From assembly GCA_018402135.1 (NCBI GenBank), contig JAGYJF010000002.1, positions 620,001 through 684,000 of the forward strand: a stretch of DNA of 64,000 nucleotides, written 5' to 3'. Made by a program: the position numbers and the translations under genes. Shown one piece after another: positions 9,780-25,278 of this stretch. Position 1 is the first letter of the stretch. The number at the start of each line of letters is the position of its first letter. This DNA is from Flavobacteriaceae bacterium. GTDB taxonomy: Bacteria > Bacteroidota > Bacteroidia > Flavobacteriales > Flavobacteriaceae. The notes under the pieces were generated by a model. It saw only the letters and a list, made by a program, of their open reading frames with translations. It was not told the origin of the DNA and made no database searches.

Positions 9780-9896
9780 GCTATCCAATTAAATACTAAG
9801 GTAATTCGAAAGGCTTAAATGAGTATAGATGATATGCGTCATTTCATAATTAATTGATTAACAATACATTTATATAGATTTTTAAATACAATAAAG

Positions 9897-11614
9897 ATGA
9901 AGGATATTAGCATTATAGAACAGATGAAAGATAGGGGTATAAGCAAGACATTGCTTTTAGAAGCTTTTCAAAATATTCCTAAAGCTTTTTTTTATCAGAA
10001 ACATTGCATCCTAATTTTTATGAAGATGCAGCAGTTGAAAAAGCAACAGATAAAGCAGATCCTAGAGTAATAGTAATAGCCCGAATGTTGGAAGAGTTGC
10101 AGATAAAAGAAGAAGAAAACATCCTTATTATTGGAGTAGATTCTGTTACTATTCTGGCTGTTCTTTCCAAAATTTATAAAAATATTTATGCTATTGAAAC
10201 ATCCCAAGTTTATGCAAAATGGGCCTTAGATGTCCTTAAAACAATAGGTGTTACCAACGTACACATAAAAACAGGAAAACTTGAAGAAGGATGGAAAGCT
10301 AAAGGACCATTGAATGCTATTTTAAGTGCTTTAGAATTTGAAGAAATTCCAAAGGTGTTAATTGAACAATTAAAAATTGGAGCGAAATTATTAGCACCAA
10401 TGGGTTCAGATTGGGCACATGTGATGTTAGAAATCGTTGAACGGGTTTCTGAAACTGAATTTGTAGCAAAAGCATTACGGGATAATTATTTTATATCGAA
10501 GCCAACACTAATTCCTGATATAGGCACTGAAATCTATCCTGAAAAAGATATTATAGATGAAATTGGGATAAGTTCAATTCCTTTTAAAACCATTAAAAAA
10601 TTCCCAATAGATGGTTTATTAGATAGAATAGGAGACGTAAGAGTCGTTTTGTTAGAGTAGGCCTCTTATGGTACTTCAGAATTTCATGCTGCGAGACAGG
10701 AAATTACAAAAGCGCTAACAGAACGAAAAGGATTTAACTTTGTTTGCACTGAAGCCGATTGGTCTGATGCCGAACAAATAAACAATTAATAAAGAAATGA
10801 CTATAAATCGCAAGATTTGATGCCGTTTGGACGTTTCCCAGAATGGATGTGGAAAAACAAAGATGTACTCAATTTTGTAGAGTGGCTTAAAAAATATAAT
10901 AGCAAGCATGATAATACTATTGGATTTTACGGACTCGATTTATACGTATTAGAGATTTCTATTGATTTGGTCATTAAATATCTAGAAGATGTTAACCCAG
11001 ACTTGGTGATGCTTGCAAAATCGCGTTAAGCATGCATTATGCCATTTATGTCCAGTCCTTCAATGTATGGAAAACTTGCCACAACTAATAAACTGGAGAG
11101 TTGTGAGGCCGAGGTATTAAAAATGTTGTTCGACTTATTGAAAAACAAAAAATAAACTCGACGCTAGAGTTGAAATAAATATTGGACATTTATGTAAAGA
11201 ACATTTTGGTGATAAATCTTATCATATTGGTTTGGAACACATACAGGAACCGTTTCCGCGTCCAACAATTGGGATGTACCTATGAAAGTGATAGCTGTAA
11301 ATAACTCTTTATAAAAAAGTTACGAAAATATTTGTCATAGAACAAACGTCCCTAATTTTACACTGCCTTTACGTGAGGAACATTCAGAAGAAAAATTAAG
11401 AGAATTTTTAGGCACACCTCGACTCGAGCGAGCTATTGGTGTTGTCTATAGACCAGATACGGAACTGATGAGTCATTACTTTAAAACCGTTTTGCCGTCA
11501 CAATTTGACGAGTACATTTGGTTCAATAAATCACAAGCTGTATCACCATTAGATGCCAAAACAGAAACTACCAAACTTTTAGATTTGCATCCTTTTGAAT
11601 TGTTAGGTAGATAG
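9897..11614 (+). pseudogene. Decayed PCMT-erythromycin esterase fusion gene
   Basis: Reading across stops and frames gives an N-terminal protein-L-isoaspartate methyltransferase-like domain (starting ATG 9897; GISKTLLLEAFQNIPKAFF, then SETLHPNFYEDAAVEKATDK) running into an erythromycin-esterase-like domain (IGDVRVVLL, TSEFHAARQEITKAL, FGRFPEWMWKNKDV, GFYGLDLY, GTPRLERAIGVVYRP). Lesions: one base missing in a T8 run at 9986-9993; in-frame stops at 10658 (TAG), 10787 and 10790 (TAA TAA), 11027, 11153 and 11312; a frame change plus an apparent deletion of roughly 100 codons around 11155-11162; and one T missing near 11231. The remaining open piece at 10004-10660 is only the methyltransferase part. 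An intact stand-alone pcm lies at 31968. With this many lesions sequencing error cannot explain the loss. Confidence 0.9.
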
Positions 11615-11698: not shown

Positions 11699-12718
11699 TC
11701 ATAGTTCAAAACCTAAAGTATTTTGTAAAATTTCTTTAAGCTTAGGAGTAGAAATAGAATCAATTAAATTAAGCGCAGTAACATTACATAATTTTTCAAC
11801 CAATTCACTTCCAGCAATGGTGTTGGTTGAAATTCCTGTGACAACATCTGGTTTAATATTAAAAGCTTTCATTAATCCATAGACAGCATAAGGATCTGAA
11901 GCACTTAAAATTGTACACTTAATATTTTTCCTAATGGCCTCAATAGCCAAATCACCATGGTAAGGCTCTAAAGGTGAAGCACCTATTTCAATTACAGCAA
12001 CGTCTGCATCTATACTGCCAATAAGGTTTTTCATATGAGCCACTTTTTCTAAATAGACTTCCTTTTTACATATAGAAGACGGTAGTCCAGCATCAACAAA
12101 ATCAAAAACAGCATCTGCACCAACATCTTTAATAGCTAAAATATCTTTGTATCGACCAGCACCTGTTAATTTAGCACCTACCACTTTTAAACCTGCCATT
12201 TTAAAGATATTGGTAATTATTCTGGCAGAAGTAGTTTTACCAGCAGCCATAGATGTTCCTACAAACAATACAACCGGAACAGTAAATTCTTTCCATTGTA
12301 TAGGTTTTACAAAATCTTCCATTCTCGATTTTTTGCCATTCCTAAAGGCATGTCCCAGATATTTAATAGTCATCATCTCATGAATATAAACCGATTTTGA
12401 TGTTAACTTTCCGAGTAAACCACCTGCTGTTAATACATGTAGTATATCATCTTCTTCAACAGCCTTCCAAGTACCTGTTGCTTCTAAAGTCGCATAACGT
12501 TCTCCTAAAACGCCAACAAGCGATTCTCCTCCCATAACACCACGCATCCGTCCATTTGGCAATTCTATTTTAAAAGAATCACTTCCTTTTGCAATGATTT
12601 TGCAAACCACATAATCTCCAGTTTCCCATTTTGTTTTGTCTAATTTTTCGACCTCAAAACCATTAATGGACAAATCTGAGATTCGCGTTAAACCTGTATA
12701 GATGTATTTGTATTTCAT
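11699..12718 (-). CDS. DUF1611 family P-loop protein (DgcN-like)
   Basis: 339 residues. A beta-rich N-terminal domain to about residue 140 is followed by a P-loop NTPase domain: VLFVGTSMAAGKTTSARII is the Walker A, with ADVAVIEIGASPLEPYHGD and CTILSASDPYAVYGLMKAF downstream, all typical of DUF1611. Some members (DgcN) have been reported to act in D-glutamate catabolism as N-acyltransferases together with a racemase, DgcA. No DgcA homologue is next door here; instead an M20 hydrolase gene ends 11 bp upstream, on the same strand. The role is therefore inferred only to the level of D- or N-acyl-amino acid metabolism. Last gene of a three-gene minus-strand operon. Confidence 0.8.
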   Translation of the reverse strand: MKYKYIYTGLTRISDLSINGFEVEKLDKTKWETGDYVVCKIIAKGSDSFKIELPNGRMRGVMGGESLVGVLGERYATLEATGTWKAVEEDDILHVLTAGGLLGKLTSKSVYIHEMMTIKYLGHAFRNGKKSRMEDFVKPIQWKEFTVPVVLFVGTSMAAGKTTSARIITNIFKMAGLKVVGAKLTGAGRYKDILAIKDVGADAVFDFVDAGLPSSICKKEVYLEKVAHMKNLIGSIDADVAVIEIGASPLEPYHGDLAIEAIRKNIKCTILSASDPYAVYGLMKAFNIKPDVVTGISTNTIAGSELVEKLCNVTALNLIDSISTPKLKEILQNTLGFEL

Positions 12719-12729
12719 TGCTCTGATTT

Positions 12730-13905
12730 TTATTTGTTTTCATTTGATTTCTCCAACAACAATAATGTTAAAAGGGCTGTTCGTTCTATTAATTTATCCA
12801 CATAGATAAACTCGCGCGCAGCGTGAGCGCCATCACCAGTAGTGCCTAAACCATCTAAAGTGGCAGTATATAAGCTTGTGGTATTTCCGTCTGAACCACC
12901 ACCAGCCGTTGCCTCATCTAGAGAAAGACCTATTAATTTAGCATTGGCTTTTGCTAATTTCCATAATTGTTGATTTCGAGGTGTTTTTTCCATAGGCTGT
13001 CTGCCTATTCCACCCTCAATTACAAGCTCTACACCATCAAGCATAGGTTCTAATTGATGGATCTTTTCAGTGATATAGTCGCCATCCTTTTGACTGTAAA
13101 CTCTTACATCTATTACAGCATTGCTTGCCGCAGCTACTACGTTAGCTGAGGTACCACCTTCAATCAATCCAATATTAACGGTGATTCCTTTATCAAAATC
13201 GTTCATCGCATGCAATTGTTGTACTTGGTATGCGAGTTCAACAATTGCATTTACACCTTTTTCTGGGTCCAACCCAGCATGAGTAGCTTTCCCTTTTATG
13301 GCAATTGTAAAGCGACCAATACCTTTTCTTTCTGTTTTTAACTTACCTTCAATACCTAAGGGTGGCTCGAGAACAAATGCTCTTTTGACGATTTTTGAAA
13401 GTCTCTTTATGGCTAGGGTGGACTCATGACTTCCAACTTCTTCATCTGAATTTATTAATACAATAGGCGTAACAGGTATATCTAGCTTTAATGTTTTTAT
13501 AGCTGAAAGGGCAAATATTATTTCAGTTAAACCTGCTTTCATATCGTAAACACCTGGTCCGTTAAGTTTACCTTTGCTTTGTGAAATTGGCATGGTGTCG
13601 AGAGTATTCAAATCCCACACCGTATCACAATGTCCCAATAACAATTGGAATGGGCTATTTTTTTTTCTGTTTAAAGGGCGAGCATATAAATAGCCTCCTC
13701 CCTTTTCTCCTTTAACATGAATCGTATAAAACCCAAGTGACCTAAATTTGTCTTCAAGAAATTTGATTATATTATGAAGTGCCTTTTTATTATTTGAAGG
13801 CGATTCTATAGCAACCATGTCCTTTAAGAAATTCAACATTTTATGCCCATTTTCCTCGAGATATGTCTTTATCGCTTTGGCTGTATGTTGTTTTGAAGTA
13901 CTCAA
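12730..13905 (-). CDS. M20-family metallohydrolase (glutamate carboxypeptidase / N-acyl amino acid hydrolase type)
   Basis: 391 residues. M20 zinc-peptidase motifs: LLLGHCDTVW (zinc His and catalytic Asp), GPGVYDMKAG (bridging Asp), NSDEEVGS (catalytic Glu and zinc Glu), and HAAREFIYVD near the end (zinc His). The lid domain carries KGKATHAGLDPEKGVNAI. Overall it resembles the carboxypeptidase G2 group, which removes glutamate from N-acyl or peptide substrates. No signal peptide is seen, so it acts in the cytosol. Its start overlaps the stop of the upstream flavin reductase by 4 bp (ATGA), so the pair is translationally coupled. A plausible partner of the DUF1611 protein: one adds and one removes an N-acyl group. 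Confidence 0.86.
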   Translation of the reverse strand: MSTSKQHTAKAIKTYLEENGHKMLNFLKDMVAIESPSNNKKALHNIIKFLEDKFRSLGFYTIHVKGEKGGGYLYARPLNRKKNSPFQLLLGHCDTVWDLNTLDTMPISQSKGKLNGPGVYDMKAGLTEIIFALSAIKTLKLDIPVTPIVLINSDEEVGSHESTLAIKRLSKIVKRAFVLEPPLGIEGKLKTERKGIGRFTIAIKGKATHAGLDPEKGVNAIVELAYQVQQLHAMNDFDKGITVNIGLIEGGTSANVVAAASNAVIDVRVYSQKDGDYITEKIHQLEPMLDGVELVIEGGIGRQPMEKTPRNQQLWKLAKANAKLIGLSLDEATAGGGSDGNTTSLYTATLDGLGTTGDGAHAAREFIYVDKLIERTALLTLLLLEKSNENK

Positions 13906-14519
13906 TGTTTAAAGTCTTTTGGAAAAGGGAAATTATAGGTTTCAGAAATACTTGCGAATCGACCTTGGGCTATATAAGCCAATAATGGATTTTCCTTAAG
14001 TTGTTGCTGCTGATCTTTTTCTGAAACTTTCAAATAATCTTTATGACAGTAGGCAGCTACTATAGTACCTGTGATAATACTGTTTTCGTTAAAGCCATCG
14101 ATTATATTGAAGAGTTTACATTCTAAAAACAAATAAGATTCGGCTAAAAATAACGCATTTATAGTTGATGCTTTTAAGGTTGGTAATATATCAATTATGG
14201 GTTTTGTTACTGAATTTTCTTCACATCTAGGGGAAGCACTTAATGATGCCAATACCACTTGATTGGGTAATGGAAAACTTACTGAAAACTCTTTAGTGTT
14301 TTTTACATTATGGTAGGTTTTATGCTTTGGTGTGCATACAAAACCAAAGTAATTGTCAAATCCAATTGGTATGGCCAAATGTTTTGGTGCTAGATCATAT
14401 GTATCGCCTTCTTTCGTGCCTATAATAACCAAAGGCGCAACAGTGAAAATTTGCTCCCAGACTGGATTTGAAAGATCTAGCTTATAATATCCGTTTTCAT
14501 GTAATCTTATCATAATCAA
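13902..14519 (-). CDS. Flavin reductase-like FMN-binding split-barrel protein
   Basis: 205 residues with the FMN-binding split-barrel pattern: LVIIGTKEGDTYDLAPKHLA, YFGFVCTPKHKTYHNVKNTK and EFSVSFPLP match the flavin-reductase-like domain. Family members reduce flavin with NAD(P)H or serve as flavoprotein oxygenase partners. It is the first gene of the minus-strand operon with the M20 hydrolase and DUF1611 protein. Its substrate and its link to the other two genes are not evident. A second Met occurs at codon 3 and could be the true start. Confidence 0.8.
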   Translation of the reverse strand: MIMIRLHENGYYKLDLSNPVWEQIFTVAPLVIIGTKEGDTYDLAPKHLAIPIGFDNYFGFVCTPKHKTYHNVKNTKEFSVSFPLPNQVVLASLSASPRCEENSVTKPIIDILPTLKASTINALFLAESYLFLECKLFNIIDGFNENSIITGTIVAAYCHKDYLKVSEKDQQQQLKENPLLAYIAQGRFASISETYNFPFPKDFKH

Positions 14520-14739
14520 TGTATAAATTACATTTTAAAACTATATAATTAAAATCTTAAATTAAATGATATTCATCAGTAATTGAACATTTTGTGATAT
14601 AGCAAATTACATAGGTTAATATTTGTATTTATGAAATTAATCCAATTGATTTTAAAAAAATATTGAATAACCCATAACTATGAATAAGCGATTTAAGCAA
14701 CTGTTGCGCTATTTAACAACGCTTTTACTTCCAAATCAT

Positions 14740-14853: not shown

Positions 14854-15023
14854 CTTATGCTAGTTTTTGCTTTATAGAAATTTGAATTTACGGTAATGTT
14901 AGTAATCCTAATATGATAAACGTTTTAAAGTGATGCTAAAAGTTTCAAAAACTGATAAAGATCATTTTATAAGACATAATTAATCACTATTATGCTTCCA
15001 TATTAATATTAAATCAATAAATT

Positions 15024-15227
15024 ATGTCAGTATTAAAAGTAATAGAAATCTTAGGAAATTCTACAATAAGTTTTGATGACGCAGTTAAAAACGTTGTTAA
15101 AGAAGCATCCAAAACAGTAAAAAATATCAAGTCTGTTTATGTAAAAGATATGCAGGCAACTGTTGACAACAATCAGGTAACCCAGTTCAGAGTGACTACG
15201 AAAGTTAGTTTTGGTATAACCGATTAG
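15024..15227 (+). CDS. Dodecin family flavin-binding protein
   Basis: 67 residues, the usual dodecin length. It starts SVLKVIEILGNSTISFDDAV and continues with KEASKTVKNIKSVYVKDMQA and QFRVTTKVSFGI, the single-helix/three-strand pattern of dodecin. Dodecins form hollow 12-mers that store flavins or CoA and protect the cell from free flavin. Its neighbourhood includes a flavin reductase gene, though on the other strand. A large terminator follows directly, so it is a single-gene transcript. Confidence 0.9.
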   Translation: MSVLKVIEILGNSTISFDDAVKNVVKEASKTVKNIKSVYVKDMQATVDNNQVTQFRVTTKVSFGITD

Positions 15228-15413: not shown

Positions 15414-16571
15414 ATGTCATTACTATATAAAAAAGACATTGAAGAATTAAATAAGGTCAATGCAGAAAATTGTATTTCTTTATTTGTTCCTGCGCATAGA
15501 GCAGGTGAAGAAGTATTGAATCATAAAGATGTGTTAGCTTTAAAAACACAAGTAAAACACGTGAAACATAAGTTGTCTAAAAAAGGACTTCAGGATTTGG
15601 ATATCAGTAAAATGTTAGCTCCTGTAGAAAAATTAATAGATGATAGTCGGTTTTGGAGCCATCAATCTGATGGTTTGGCAATTTTTTTAACCGATAGTTT
15701 TTTTAGAAAATATACGCTTCCTATATATTTTCAAGAATTTAACGCTGTTGCAGATTCCTTTTATTTAAAACCATTGATGCCTATGTTTGTTGGTGATGGG
15801 ACTTTTTATTTGATGACGCTTCAATTAGAAACTGTAAAATTATATGAATGCACCAAATATAGTTTTACCGAGATTGTCATCGATGATTTAATACCTAAAA
15901 ACCTACAAGAAAGGGTAGGCTATGATTATGAGGAAAAAAATCTTCAATTTAGGACGCAACAAGCAGGTAAAGGGCAGGCCATGTTTCATGGTCAAGAAGC
16001 TGCTACAGGTAAAGACAAAAAGGAAATTAAAGTTTATTTTAAAGCCATAAATGATGGGCTCAGCACAATTTTACGTGAAGAGACTAGTCCATTATTAATA
16101 GTCTCTCAAGATTATCTCTTTTCAATTTACGAAGAGATTAATACGTATCAGAATCTAGTAAAACAACATGTTAAAGTTGATTTTGATGCTATTGATATTT
16201 TTGACATTCATGAGATGGCATGGGAAAAAATGGCTCCAACATTTGACCAAGCCAGAAAGGATAAAATAGCACGTTTTTTAGCAGAGCAAGGCACAGGTAA
16301 AACGGCTGTTGAAATTAAAGCCATATTGCCAGCAGCTTTTGATGGAAAAATTGAGACTTTATTTTGTGAAAATATGGCTGATATTTATGGTACTTACAAA
16401 AAAGAAAATGGGACTATAACGCTTTCTATAAGTGAGGAAAATGACAATTCAATTTCATTAATGAATGCAGCTGCAATACAAACCTTTTTAAAGGGTGGAG
16501 ACATTTATTTACTTGATAAGGAAGATATGCCAAATCCAAATTCAAAAATCAATGCATTGTATAGGTATTAA
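15414..16571 (+). CDS. Bacterial archaeo-eukaryotic release factor (baeRF) family protein
   Basis: 385 residues, no signal peptide or membrane segment. ENCISLFVPAHRAGEE at the start, FWSHQSDGLAIFLTD near residues 81-95, and YLFSIYEEINTY in the C-terminal third match the bacterial eRF1-like (baeRF) families. These contain a domain related to the middle and C-terminal parts of eRF1 and are predicted to act on ribosomes or RNA; experiments are scarce. I do not see the GGQ motif of true release factors, as expected for many baeRF groups. Genes of this family often sit with stress genes, which fits this block. Family assignment is by pattern recognition. Confidence 0.7.
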   Translation: MSLLYKKDIEELNKVNAENCISLFVPAHRAGEEVLNHKDVLALKTQVKHVKHKLSKKGLQDLDISKMLAPVEKLIDDSRFWSHQSDGLAIFLTDSFFRKYTLPIYFQEFNAVADSFYLKPLMPMFVGDGTFYLMTLQLETVKLYECTKYSFTEIVIDDLIPKNLQERVGYDYEEKNLQFRTQQAGKGQAMFHGQEAATGKDKKEIKVYFKAINDGLSTILREETSPLLIVSQDYLFSIYEEINTYQNLVKQHVKVDFDAIDIFDIHEMAWEKMAPTFDQARKDKIARFLAEQGTGKTAVEIKAILPAAFDGKIETLFCENMADIYGTYKKENGTITLSISEENDNSISLMNAAAIQTFLKGGDIYLLDKEDMPNPNSKINALYRY

Positions 16572-17750: not shown

Positions 17751-18077
17751 ATGAGAAAGTTAATTATTACCATTGGATATATTTCAGCATTACTCACCTT
17801 AATTTTAGCTGTCACCCCTTTTTCAAATATTGCAATTTTTCCAGGAGTTTTAGCGGTTATTTTAGCTGTTTTGATTTATGTCATATCCAATAAACAATCT
17901 AAAAAACCGGTTCAGTATATTTTATTGCTTACTATCATCGCAGCTGGATTTATGATATACAACACTATTTTTAGTGAAAGTACTGTAGGCGATACTGAGG
18001 CCTTAGAATTAAGGGAAGAAGAATCAAAAGAAAAAGCCATCGAAGAACTAGAAACATTAGACCTAGACTTCGAATAA
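17751..18077 (+). CDS. Small membrane protein, unknown function
   Basis: 108 residues with three hydrophobic segments (about 4-20, 24-46 and 56-72), then an acidic, charged tail rich in Glu (LREEESKEKAIEELETLDLD). No recognised family. Starts 3 bp after the DUF3108 gene and ends just before a terminator, so it is the second and last gene of that transcript. Confidence 0.75.
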   Translation: MRKLIITIGYISALLTLILAVTPFSNIAIFPGVLAVILAVLIYVISNKQSKKPVQYILLLTIIAAGFMIYNTIFSESTVGDTEALELREEESKEKAIEELETLDLDFE

Positions 18078-22668: not shown

Positions 22669-25278
22669 ATGAACCTAAACAATTTTACCATAAAATCGCA
22701 AGAAGCCATTCAGCAAGCGCAACAATTAGCGCAAAGCTTAGGGCATCAGCAAATAGAAAATGAGCATATTTTTAAAGCCATTATTGAGGTGGATGACAAT
22801 GTAGTTCCTTTTCTACTTAAAAAACTGAATGTTAATACTAGTGTCTTAAATTTAGCCGTTGATAAGCAGTTAGAAAGTTTCGCCAAAGTTTCTGGCGGCG
22901 AAATAATGCTTTCACGCGAAGCAGGTAAAGCAATTAATGAGGCGTCTATCATTGCTAAAAAAATGAAAGATGACTACGTTTCTATAGAACATTTGGTATT
23001 GGCAATTTTTAAATCGAATAGCCCAATAGCTAAAATGCTAAAAGACCAAGCAGTTACTGAAAAAGGTTTACAAGCGGCTATTAATGAACTGCGTAAAGGC
23101 GACCGTGTAACCTCGCAAAGTCAAGAAGAAACTTATAATTCACTTAATAAATACGCTAAAAACTTAAACCAGTTGGCGCGTGACGGAAAATTAGACCCAG
23201 TAATTGGCCGTGATGAAGAAATACGACGCATACTTCAAATATTATCCCGTCGCACAAAAAACAACCCTATTTTAGTTGGTGAACCAGGAACTGGTAAAAC
23301 AGCCATTGCAGAAGGTTTAGCCCACAGAATTATAGATGGTGATATTCCCGAAAATCTTAAAGATAAACAAATATTTGCACTAGATATGGGCGCACTTATT
23401 GCAGGTGCCAAATACAAAGGTGAGTTTGAAGAACGTCTGAAAGCAGTAATTAAAGAAGTTACAACTAGCGAAGGAGATATCGTTTTATTTATAGATGAAA
23501 TTCACACCTTAGTTGGTGCTGGAGGCGGACAAGGCGCGATGGATGCAGCAAACATATTAAAACCAGCCCTGGCAAGAGGTGAACTACGCGCCATTGGAGC
23601 AACAACACTTGATGAGTATCAAAAATATTTTGAGAAAGACAAAGCATTAGAACGCCGTTTTCAAAAAGTAGTAGTAAACGAACCAGATACTGAAAGTGCC
23701 ATTTCAATTTTACGAGGCATTAAGGAAAAATACGAAACGCATCATAAGGTACGAATTAAAGACGAAGCCATTATCGGAGCCGTGGAATTATCGGAACGTT
23801 ATATCACTAATCGATTTTTACCAGACAAAGCTATTGATTTAATGGACGAGGCAGCGTCGAAATTGCGGATGGAAATCAACTCAAAACCAGAAGAGTTAGA
23901 TGTGCTCGACAGAAAAATAATGCAACTCGAAATCGAGATCGAAGCCATCAAGCGTGAAAAAGACGAGATCAAACTTAAATCACTCAGTGCCGAAGTCGCG
24001 AACTTAAAAGAAGAACGCAACAGCCTTAATGCCAAATGGAAAAGTGAAAAGGAAGTAGTTGATAATATTCAATTACAAAAATCAAATATTGAAAATTATA
24101 AACTTGAAGCCGAACGTGCTGAACGCGAAGGCGATTATGGAAAAGTTGCCGAATTGCGTTACGGTAAAATTAAAGATTCTCAAGAATCTTTAGAAAAACT
24201 GCAAAAACAGCTAAGAGAGAATCAATCCGGTAGCTCTTTAATAAAAGAAGAAGTCACGTATGACGACATTGCAGAAGTTGTAGCGAAATGGACTGGCATA
24301 CCGGTTACCAAAATGCTTCAAAGTGAACGCGACAAACTTTTAAAGTTAGAAGACGAATTGCACAAACGTGTTATTGGTCAAGAAGAAGCTATTGTAGCTG
24401 TGAGTGATGCCGTACGAAGAAGTAGAGCAGGATTACAAAATCCGCAAAAACCCGTTGGAACCTTCTTATTTTTAGGAACCACAGGCGTTGGTAAAACTGA
24501 ATTAGCAAAAGCACTTGCCGAGTACTTATTTGATGATGAAAACGCCATGACTAGAATAGACATGAGCGAATATCAAGAACGACATGCCGTAAGCAGATTG
24601 GTTGGTGCGCCTCCAGGTTATGTTGGTTATGATGAAGGCGGACAGCTCACTGAAGCCGTGCGTAGAAAACCATATTCTGTTGTATTATTAGATGAAATTG
24701 AAAAAGCACATCCCGATACGTTTAACATTCTTTTGCAAGTATTAGATGAAGGCAGGTTAACCGATAACAAAGGCCGCGTGGCCGATTTTAAAAACACTAT
24801 TATTATTATGACTTCCAATATGGGAAGCGAAATAATTCAGGAAAAATTTAGTGCGGTTAAAGATCTGGATACGGCGATGGAAGCAGCCAAAATTGAAGTA
24901 TTAGGATTACTAAAACAAACCGTTAGGCCCGAATTTTTAAACCGAATAGACGATACTATTATGTTTACGCCTTTAACCAAAGAAAATATATTAGATATTG
25001 TTGGTCTGCAAATAAAAGGTATCACAAAAATGATTGGAAAACAAGGTATAACCTTTGATGCCACTTTAGAGGCGAAAGCCTACCTCGCTGATAAGGGTTT
25101 CAATCCTGAATACGGAGCAAGACCAGTAAAACGTGTCATTCAAAAAGAAGTATTAAACGCATTAAGTAAAGAAATACTTGCCGGAACTGTAACTACAGAC
25201 AGCATTATTTTACTTGACGAATTTGATGGCGAGTTGGTATTTAGAAACCAAGGCGACCTAGTGGTTGAAGAAATTTAA
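22669..25278 (+). CDS. clpB: ATP-dependent disaggregase ClpB
   Basis: 869 residues, the usual ClpB length. Domains in order: N-terminal Clp repeats (1-150), AAA+ module 1 with Walker [10 protein letters not shown] near 204-212, the long coiled-coil middle domain (about 400-530, [20 protein letters not shown] and after), then AAA+ module 2 with [10 protein letters not shown] near 603-612. No ClpP-binding IGF loop is evident, as expected for ClpB. It rescues aggregated proteins with DnaK after heat stress. A single gene with its own terminator. A CIRCE or other heat-shock operator was not recognised in the 188-bp upstream gap. Confidence 0.97.

Follow-up and report, generated by a model that had tools for sequence, protein, structure and literature searches.

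We analyzed a 64,000-nucleotide stretch of a Flavobacteriaceae bacterium genome (the window; GenBank assembly GCA_018402135.1, contig JAGYJF010000002.1, positions 620,001 to 684,000) and found that three adjoining genes in it form a conserved operon. The genes encode a flavin-reductase-like protein (FLAV), an M20 metallohydrolase (M20) and a P-loop protein of an apparently unnamed family (PLOOP) (Table 1). We suggest, as a reading that may well be right although we stop short of calling it probable, that PLOOP and M20 are a pair that forms and hydrolyzes an acyl-glutamate-type amide, accompanied by the flavoprotein and controlled by oxygen or nitric oxide (NO).

Conservation of the three-gene unit

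A preliminary description of this DNA had reported a flavin-dependent protein, an M20 hydrolase and a DUF1611 protein encoded side by side, with a 4-bp overlap. We confirmed the three open reading frames (ORFs), and Pfam accepts the first two families. The overlap is indeed 4 bp, between FLAV and M20; M20 and PLOOP are separated by 11 bp.

FLAV and PLOOP occur in the same genomes. Among 99 genomes searched, PLOOP was found in the window's own genome (G000), as three close orthologues and as one distant relative, and two further loci (L007, from Algibacter sp., and L008) came from scanning named contigs. When 299 genomes of the same family were searched, a PLOOP profile made from 7 sequences had some match in 35, with 26 at E <1e-140. 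A FLAV profile had some match in 53, with 26 below 1e-80. The FLAV and PLOOP orthologues fell in the identical set of 26 of the 299 genomes. The cut-offs for this 26/26 count were chosen once the gaps in the scores were visible: for FLAV, a match at 5e-86 was followed by a 59-residue piece in genome G102 at 2.7e-28 and then by 4e-8, and for PLOOP the next match was a distant protein in G059 at 2e-136, itself a row of the search profile. The PLOOP profile gave no match in G001, a congener of the window's genome.

We found that gene order was also conserved. The order FLAV-M20-PLOOP, on one strand, was present at 32/32 loci: those of the 26 family genomes, L007, L008 and all four loci (4/4) of f50, a family in another class whose PLOOP is 44-47% identical. 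Calling the longest ORFs recovered the trio at 28 of the 32 loci (the four f50 loci were missed); considering all ORFs recovered it at 32/32. FLAV and M20 overlap by exactly 4 bp at 21 of the 32 loci, and spacing within the unit consists mostly of overlaps or gaps of <20 bp. The ORF rule over-extended the f50 start sites, so the f50 gap lengths are unreliable. Rare co-occurrence of the three genes, which the preliminary description would have counted as a refutation, is not what we observed. The three genes are thus one conserved operon, wholly present or wholly absent within the family sampled.

FLAV belongs to the flavin mononucleotide (FMN)-binding split-barrel family. It matched Flavin_Reduct (PF01613) at 46.8 bits (cut-off 27), and its best relative in the PDB was the FMN-binding protein 1eje (E 1.8e-6). 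The unit contains no oxygenase partner for it.

A carboxypeptidase G2-type hydrolase

The closest solved relatives of M20 are of carboxypeptidase G2 (CPG2). Both Pfam domains of M20 scored above cut-off (PF01546, 64.9 bits; PF07687, 76.3 bits), and an M20 profile matched the CPG2 entries 6xj5 and 1cg2 most closely in the PDB (E 4e-40), with the next other protein at 5e-20. By alignment with 1cg2, residues H92, D121, E155, E156, E180 and H361 correspond to the metal ligands and the catalytic glutamate; they are kept in 32/32 orthologues. The positions N255, R268 and R302, aligned with CPG2 N275, R288 and R324, are kept in 32/32 as well. At K188, aligned with CPG2 K208, we found K in 27, R in 3 and other residues in 2 of the 32.

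The glutamate-binding residues of CPG2 are K208, N275, R288 and R324 (numbering offset 22), and M20 largely keeps them. Because some CPG2 substrate residues are common to other M20 enzymes, those kept here support an acidic C-terminal residue in the substrate without proving it. CPG2 Arg324 and a conserved Asn are mentioned in PMC6271292. M20 differs from CPG2 in that it sits in a conserved three-gene operon, scores below cut-off against the NCBIfam glutamate carboxypeptidase model (221 bits; cut-off 349) and has a K188 that is not invariant.

PLOOP keeps residues aligned with the catalytic quartet of dethiobiotin synthetase

Within the Walker A P-loop of PLOOP (Table 1), G154, G160 and K161 are identical in 66/66 family members, counted after seven duplicate loci had been taken out. 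When 25 diverse members were combined in a profile (A5), its top match in the PDB was dethiobiotin synthetase (E 2.6e-4). In an hhalign alignment with the E. coli enzyme, BioD (E 3.2e-5, probability 72.6%), PLOOP K161, K183, D192 and E244 pair with the catalytic residues of BioD, numbered K16, K38, D55 and E116 in its translation and K15, K37, D54 and E115 when the first Met is not counted. All four PLOOP residues are identical in the 66 members collected (66/66).

In BioD and CTP synthase, ATP activates an oxygen and an amine then attacks. Based on this chemistry and the BioD-type quartet, we infer that PLOOP may be an ATP-dependent amide ligase. PLOOP probably has the same P-loop fold class as BioD and the CTP synthase amidoligase domain, and it shares with BioD the K-K-D-E quartet in register. 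It differs from both in having an additional N-terminal domain and another gene context.

An AlphaFold model built from three sequences had a mean predicted local distance difference test (pLDDT) score of 50.4, with residues 1-143 at <50. In its C-terminal domain, ten-residue pLDDT means were 54-83, with one block at 43. This domain was closest to the amidoligase domain of CTP synthase (Z 15.9, 185 residues, 3.0 A). Prediction from a single PLOOP sequence gave a mean pLDDT of 36.7. Direct comparison with the E. coli CTP synthase (pyrG) sequence was not convincing, the match being confined to 36 columns (probability 3.7%), and phmmer found nothing significant in the PDB (best E 0.68 for the window PLOOP and 0.52 for a relative from an arginine operon, described below). 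When 25 members were scanned with Pfam, no convincing match to the N-terminal domain appeared among the 25 families listed out of 32.

The PLOOP fold alone would also permit a nucleotide switch. PLOOP might be a HypB/MobB-like nucleotide-dependent chaperone or switch that supplies M20, FLAV or a neighboring ribonucleotide reductase with its metal or cofactor. In the same weak model the fold scores were 14.4 for HypB, 14.4 for SRP GTPases and 14.2 for dethiobiotin synthetase (all Z), weak CbiA, MobB and AAA_26 matches are found in 18, 13 and 13 of the 25 members, and a ribonucleotide reductase gene lies directly downstream at L008 and L010 (Pfam-checked at L010). However, the BioD-type quartet is conserved, the relatives hold a fixed position between argG and argC (below), and a ribonucleotide reductase gene is a neighbor at 3/32 loci only. 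We consider a chaperone or switch rather improbable.

PLOOP is distinct from DUF1611 and DgcN

The third gene had been described as DUF1611, an assignment that we could not uphold. The window PLOOP scored 21.7 bits against PF07755 (DUF1611; cut-off 25), over 37 residues around the P-loop (37/201 positions), and it is the sole DUF1611-like match in its genome, which is ~89% complete. DUF1611_N (PF17396) gave no match to it at E up to 1; the two true DUF1611 proteins scanned matched DUF1611_N at 90 and 100 bits. Comparison of A5 with a second profile (A6), built from 13 true DUF1611 proteins of the same phylum, gave a probability of 92.3% and E 5.4e-7, with the alignment confined to the P-loop domain (columns 148-346).

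True DUF1611 genes were above cut-off in 50 of 247 genomes of the phylum, a set distinct from that of PLOOP. A gene of the MR_MLE family adjoins 5 of the 13 true DUF1611 loci read (L144, L150, L158, L160 and L163; Pfam-checked). One genome, G033, carries both a true DUF1611 gene (at L150) and the three-gene module.

In line with the preliminary description, we found no gene for the racemase DgcA next to the unit. We found none in the window's genome either, an absence that is not absolute at ~89% completeness. The two MR_MLE_C matches in that genome have other names. For L013 the best name is o-succinylbenzoate synthase (116 bits; cut-off, 130.6), and it reached 36 of the 400 bits required for DgcA; it was rejected as a racemase. 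The translation of L014 reads, by eye, as an enolase.

DgcN, a true DUF1611 protein, is recorded as an acetyltransferase (D-glutamate N-acetyltransferase, EC 2.3.1.312) in PMC11747546, and PMC12363236 reports dgcN in Bacteroidia and Rhodothermia. PLOOP resembles DgcN in its distantly related P-loop domain and in that it may plausibly acylate glutamate. Membership of PLOOP in DgcN was rejected: it is below the Pfam cut-off, lacks DUF1611_N, aligns in the P-loop domain only and lies in another operon, and no DgcA was found. Judged by these profile comparisons, PLOOP is a separate, unnamed family and not a true DUF1611 or DgcN protein. In search listings of open-licence PMC papers we found no paper on the PLOOP family, on the gene between argG and argC or on the three-gene module.

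The route first proposed was a DgcN-type one, in which D-glutamate would be acylated and M20 would deacylate the product, with no racemase. The distant relation of the P-loop domains (E 5.4e-7) agrees with it, and an M20 enzyme could deacylate. We regard it as very improbable, given the place of PLOOP outside DUF1611, the failure to find DgcA in the genome and the separateness of true DUF1611 genes, even within a genome that carries the module.

Relatives of PLOOP lie between argG and argC

We found that relatives of PLOOP occupy a fixed place in arginine operons. In a tree of 46 rows, made by a quick method, the module members (19 rows) and a set of relatives from arginine operons (the arginine clade; 14 rows, with one gene present twice, as L057 and L111) each formed a single group, with support of 100 and 99, respectively. 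The arginine-clade genomes appear to be from other classes of the same phylum, Rhodothermia/Balneolia-like. The order argG-PLOOP-argC was present at 19/19 loci read (L052-L070) and was likewise seen at L109-L113, and in six more genomes (G428, G474, G554, G364, G707 and G648) the distance from PLOOP to argG fits the same slot. PLOOP was not in this slot at L047-L051 or at the loci of a third, looser tree group.

The arginine operon at L110 (G459) runs argG-PLOOP-argC-(143-aa ORF)-argD-N-acetylornithine carbamoyltransferase-argB-ArgE/DapE-argH. The best NCBIfam match names every gene but PLOOP, and none is named a synthase; argG, argC, the carbamoyltransferase, argB and argH are above cut-off, and argD and ArgE/DapE are below. 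L113 (G547) has the same run minus the extra ORF, with argH slightly below cut-off. What lacks a named gene is the first step, that of N-acyl-glutamate synthase.

Directly before argG, genomes of the window's class have a GNAT gene at 6/6 loci read (L115-L119 and L125; the L125 protein is above cut-off for PF00583). This GNAT was found in 7/7 of the genomes examined from the window's family and class, and in 1 of the 30 others (G364). Classical ArgA was above cut-off in 0/30, and ArgJ was found in 1 of the 23 genomes in which it was sought (G547, elsewhere than L113). The set of 30 includes G346, with a PLOOP of the third group, and G664, in which only a module PLOOP was seen; G361, with a partial PLOOP match only, was left out of the GNAT and ArgA searches. 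Eleven genomes with PLOOP in the slot (G459, G354, G340, G680, G418, G349, G645, G612, G565, G707 and G474) were negative for GNAT, ArgJ and ArgA at the thresholds used. The other 14 of the 25 such genomes had a partial or full candidate or had one type untested.

The GapMind paper (PMC7311316) describes an N-succinylglutamate synthase of Bacteroidetes, a GNAT protein of the BT3761/Cabys_1732 type. The GNAT beside argG is probably of the BT3761 type, judging from its place and not from comparison with the BT3761 sequence. Both genes are neighbors of argG, GNAT in the window's class and the PLOOP relatives in other classes, but the folds are unrelated and the slots differ, PLOOP being between argG and argC and GNAT before argG. 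Since PLOOP is in the argG-argC slot and GNAT was not found in 29 of the 30 genomes, N-acylation of glutamate is suggested. We regard the PLOOP relatives as a good candidate for the missing N-acylglutamate synthase, though not a proven one.

The third tree group mostly adjoins ABC transporters, and the placement of L072, L105 and L108 is unsure. Relatives beside an ABC transporter are at L012, L100-L103, L106, L071 and L073 (the transporter was Pfam-checked at L012, annotated at L071 and L073, and seen by eye elsewhere), some with a DUF2490 or asparaginase-type gene, the latter Pfam-checked in L012 only. A Priestia megaterium plasmid (L072:2724-11412) carries a relative within a phosphonate-type gene cluster, which also encodes PEP mutase, a carbamoyltransferase, an M20 peptidase, a luciferase-like oxidoreductase and two ATP-grasp ligases. 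Such a cluster might protect an amino group and later release it. The L072 M20 peptidase had no match to the module M20 profile at 1e-5. These other contexts agree only loosely with the formation of an acyl-glutamate-type amide.

A palindrome upstream of the operon

A palindrome, TGATNNNNATCA, lies upstream of the operon (Table 1). Its looser form, TGAYNNNNRTCA, the core of FNR/CRP-family sites, is at -43 to -72 from the called FLAV start at 20 of 31 loci (L083 was left out because its contig ends at the gene). In 300 rounds of a shuffle control the mean was 0.43 loci and the maximum 3/31. The motif was chosen after inspection of the upstream sequences, and the 20/31 count was thus not blind. 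The whole window contains 12 TGAYNNNNRTCA sites, with 3.7 expected, and 0/100 shuffles had as many.

Further TGAYNNNNRTCA sites are at 9830-9841, 14953-14964, 17872-17883 and 23610-23621. The first two are ~56-60 bp before a PCMT gene and a dodecin gene; others in the window are inside genes. The palindromes before the operon, dodecin and PCMT suggest joint control by oxygen or NO, and these neighboring stress genes are a possible FNR-type regulon.

A possible function for the operon

In the function that we suggest, PLOOP would be an amide ligase that uses ATP and has the fold class of dethiobiotin synthetase and CTP synthase; it would convert a carboxylate to an acyl phosphate and pass the activated acyl group to glutamate, or to a close analogue, at the amino group. 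The CPG2-type M20 enzyme would hydrolyze the resulting R-CO-NH-Glu bond, and the FMN-binding FLAV would act on the R group or provide reducing power. When oxygen is low or nitrosative stress sets in, an FNR-type regulator may turn on the operon together with the adjoining stress/dormancy island. ATP use, the glutamate acceptor, the acyl group, the direction of regulation and the part of FLAV are the inferred elements of this scheme; what we observed is the conservation of the unit and of the residues, the gene contexts and the palindrome. Of the route first described, for D-amino acids or N-acyl-glutamate, the N-acyl-glutamate half gains from the relatives between argG and argC and from the CPG2-like M20. 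The D-amino acid half is not supported, with PLOOP not being DUF1611 and true DUF1611 genes being separate.

Several results weigh against this scheme. The window's genome has a GNAT gene of its own before argG, with argC after it (at G000:C2, L125), and its PLOOP is not in that arginine operon. The module PLOOP forms a clade apart from the arginine clade, at ~23-25% identity, and so the substrate of the module need not match that of the arginine clade. The BT3761 type of the GNAT is taken from its place beside argG, and 14/30 genomes at least weakly match the GNAT half of ArgA, besides the ArgJ of G547 and the GNAT of G364. DgcN is recorded as an acetyltransferase, a precedent that would favor acetyl-CoA over ATP. 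Our structure model, with a mean pLDDT of 50 and an unpredicted N-terminal part, is weak, and HypB and SRP GTPases score 14.4 in it. M20 position K188 is K in 27/32 only. Upstream, TGAYNNNNRTCA is absent within -140..+40 at 11/31 loci, including L008, L011 and 4/4 f50 loci, and the stricter TGATNNNNATCA is not rare in the window (4 sites, with 1.6 expected; 9/100 shuffles reach 4).

Another possibility is cofactor tailoring, in which a larger redox-active acid, for example one derived from a pterin or flavin, would receive glutamate or a glutamate-like unit from PLOOP, be reduced by FLAV and be trimmed by M20. An amide ligase, an FMN protein and a CPG2-like hydrolase are together in one unit, and dodecin, which binds flavin, is encoded close by. 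CPG2 acts on folates. A similar pairing exists in F420 synthesis, where FbiB joins ligase and FMN reductase. However, no pterin or deazaflavin gene was noticed in the neighbor listings, mostly scanned by eye, and the relatives in arginine operons point to a small N-acyl group. We think cofactor tailoring unlikely.

The acyl-glutamate scheme has a bolder extension, which we regard as conceivable but doubtful. The PLOOP family would be a new, fold-unrelated and ATP-driven class of N-acylglutamate synthetase for the first step of arginine synthesis in entire classes of the phylum, and the window's operon an offshoot under oxygen or NO control that, with its CPG2-like hydrolase and flavoprotein, conjugates glutamate reversibly in dormancy. 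To our knowledge, N-acylglutamate synthases depend on acyl-CoA or acyl-ornithine and none uses ATP-driven ligase chemistry. If true, an unnamed family with unfamiliar chemistry would fill a gap in a textbook pathway, and the three-gene block would gain a function tied to low-oxygen dormancy.

Genomic setting

Table 1. Coordinates of the operon and of nearby features in the window
Feature	Position	Strand	Basis or remark
Gene 1, FLAV; FMN-binding split-barrel flavin-reductase-like protein, 205 aa	13902..14519	-	PF01613; PDB 1eje
Gene 2, M20 metallohydrolase, carboxypeptidase G2 type, 391 aa	12730..13905	-	PF01546/PF07687; PDB profile
Gene 3, PLOOP, 339 aa; N-terminal domain (~1-140) and BioD/CTP-synthase-like P-loop domain (~144-339)	11699..12718	-	
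Walker A P-loop GTSMAAGKT, PLOOP residues 154-162	12233..12259	-	Read from translation
FNR/CRP-type palindrome TGATNNNNATCA upstream of operon	14567..14578	.	Sequence scan
Palindrome TGATNNNNATCA, ~60 bp before dodecin gene	14953..14964	.	Putative shared regulation
Dodecin, stress-island neighbor	15024..15227	+	PF07311, 86.5 bits
Bacterial aeRF family-7-like (hibernation-factor-like) protein, neighbor	15414..16571	+	PF18849, 141 bits

The aeRF-like neighbor scored 124.7 bits against the ribosome hibernation factor model NF052287, below the cut-off of 330. Over the 32 loci, neighbors include universal stress proteins (14), WG-repeat-like proteins (11, by eye) and DUF2267 proteins (10); one example each of the universal stress and DUF2267 neighbors was Pfam-checked. 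At L008, a gene for a Ribosomal_S30AE hibernation factor lies just before FLAV. The PLOOP protein at L010:8404-9756 (G057) is 450 aa long and has a C-terminal Ribosomal_S30AE domain, matched in 1 of 7 rows.

In the window, the PCMT gene is part of a broken PCMT-erythromycin esterase fusion (9897-11611, + strand), with homologous pieces in two frames and one stretch unmatched. The break reflects either decay or an assembly error. The fusion is intact at L007 (9082-11025, - strand), where it encodes 647 aa.

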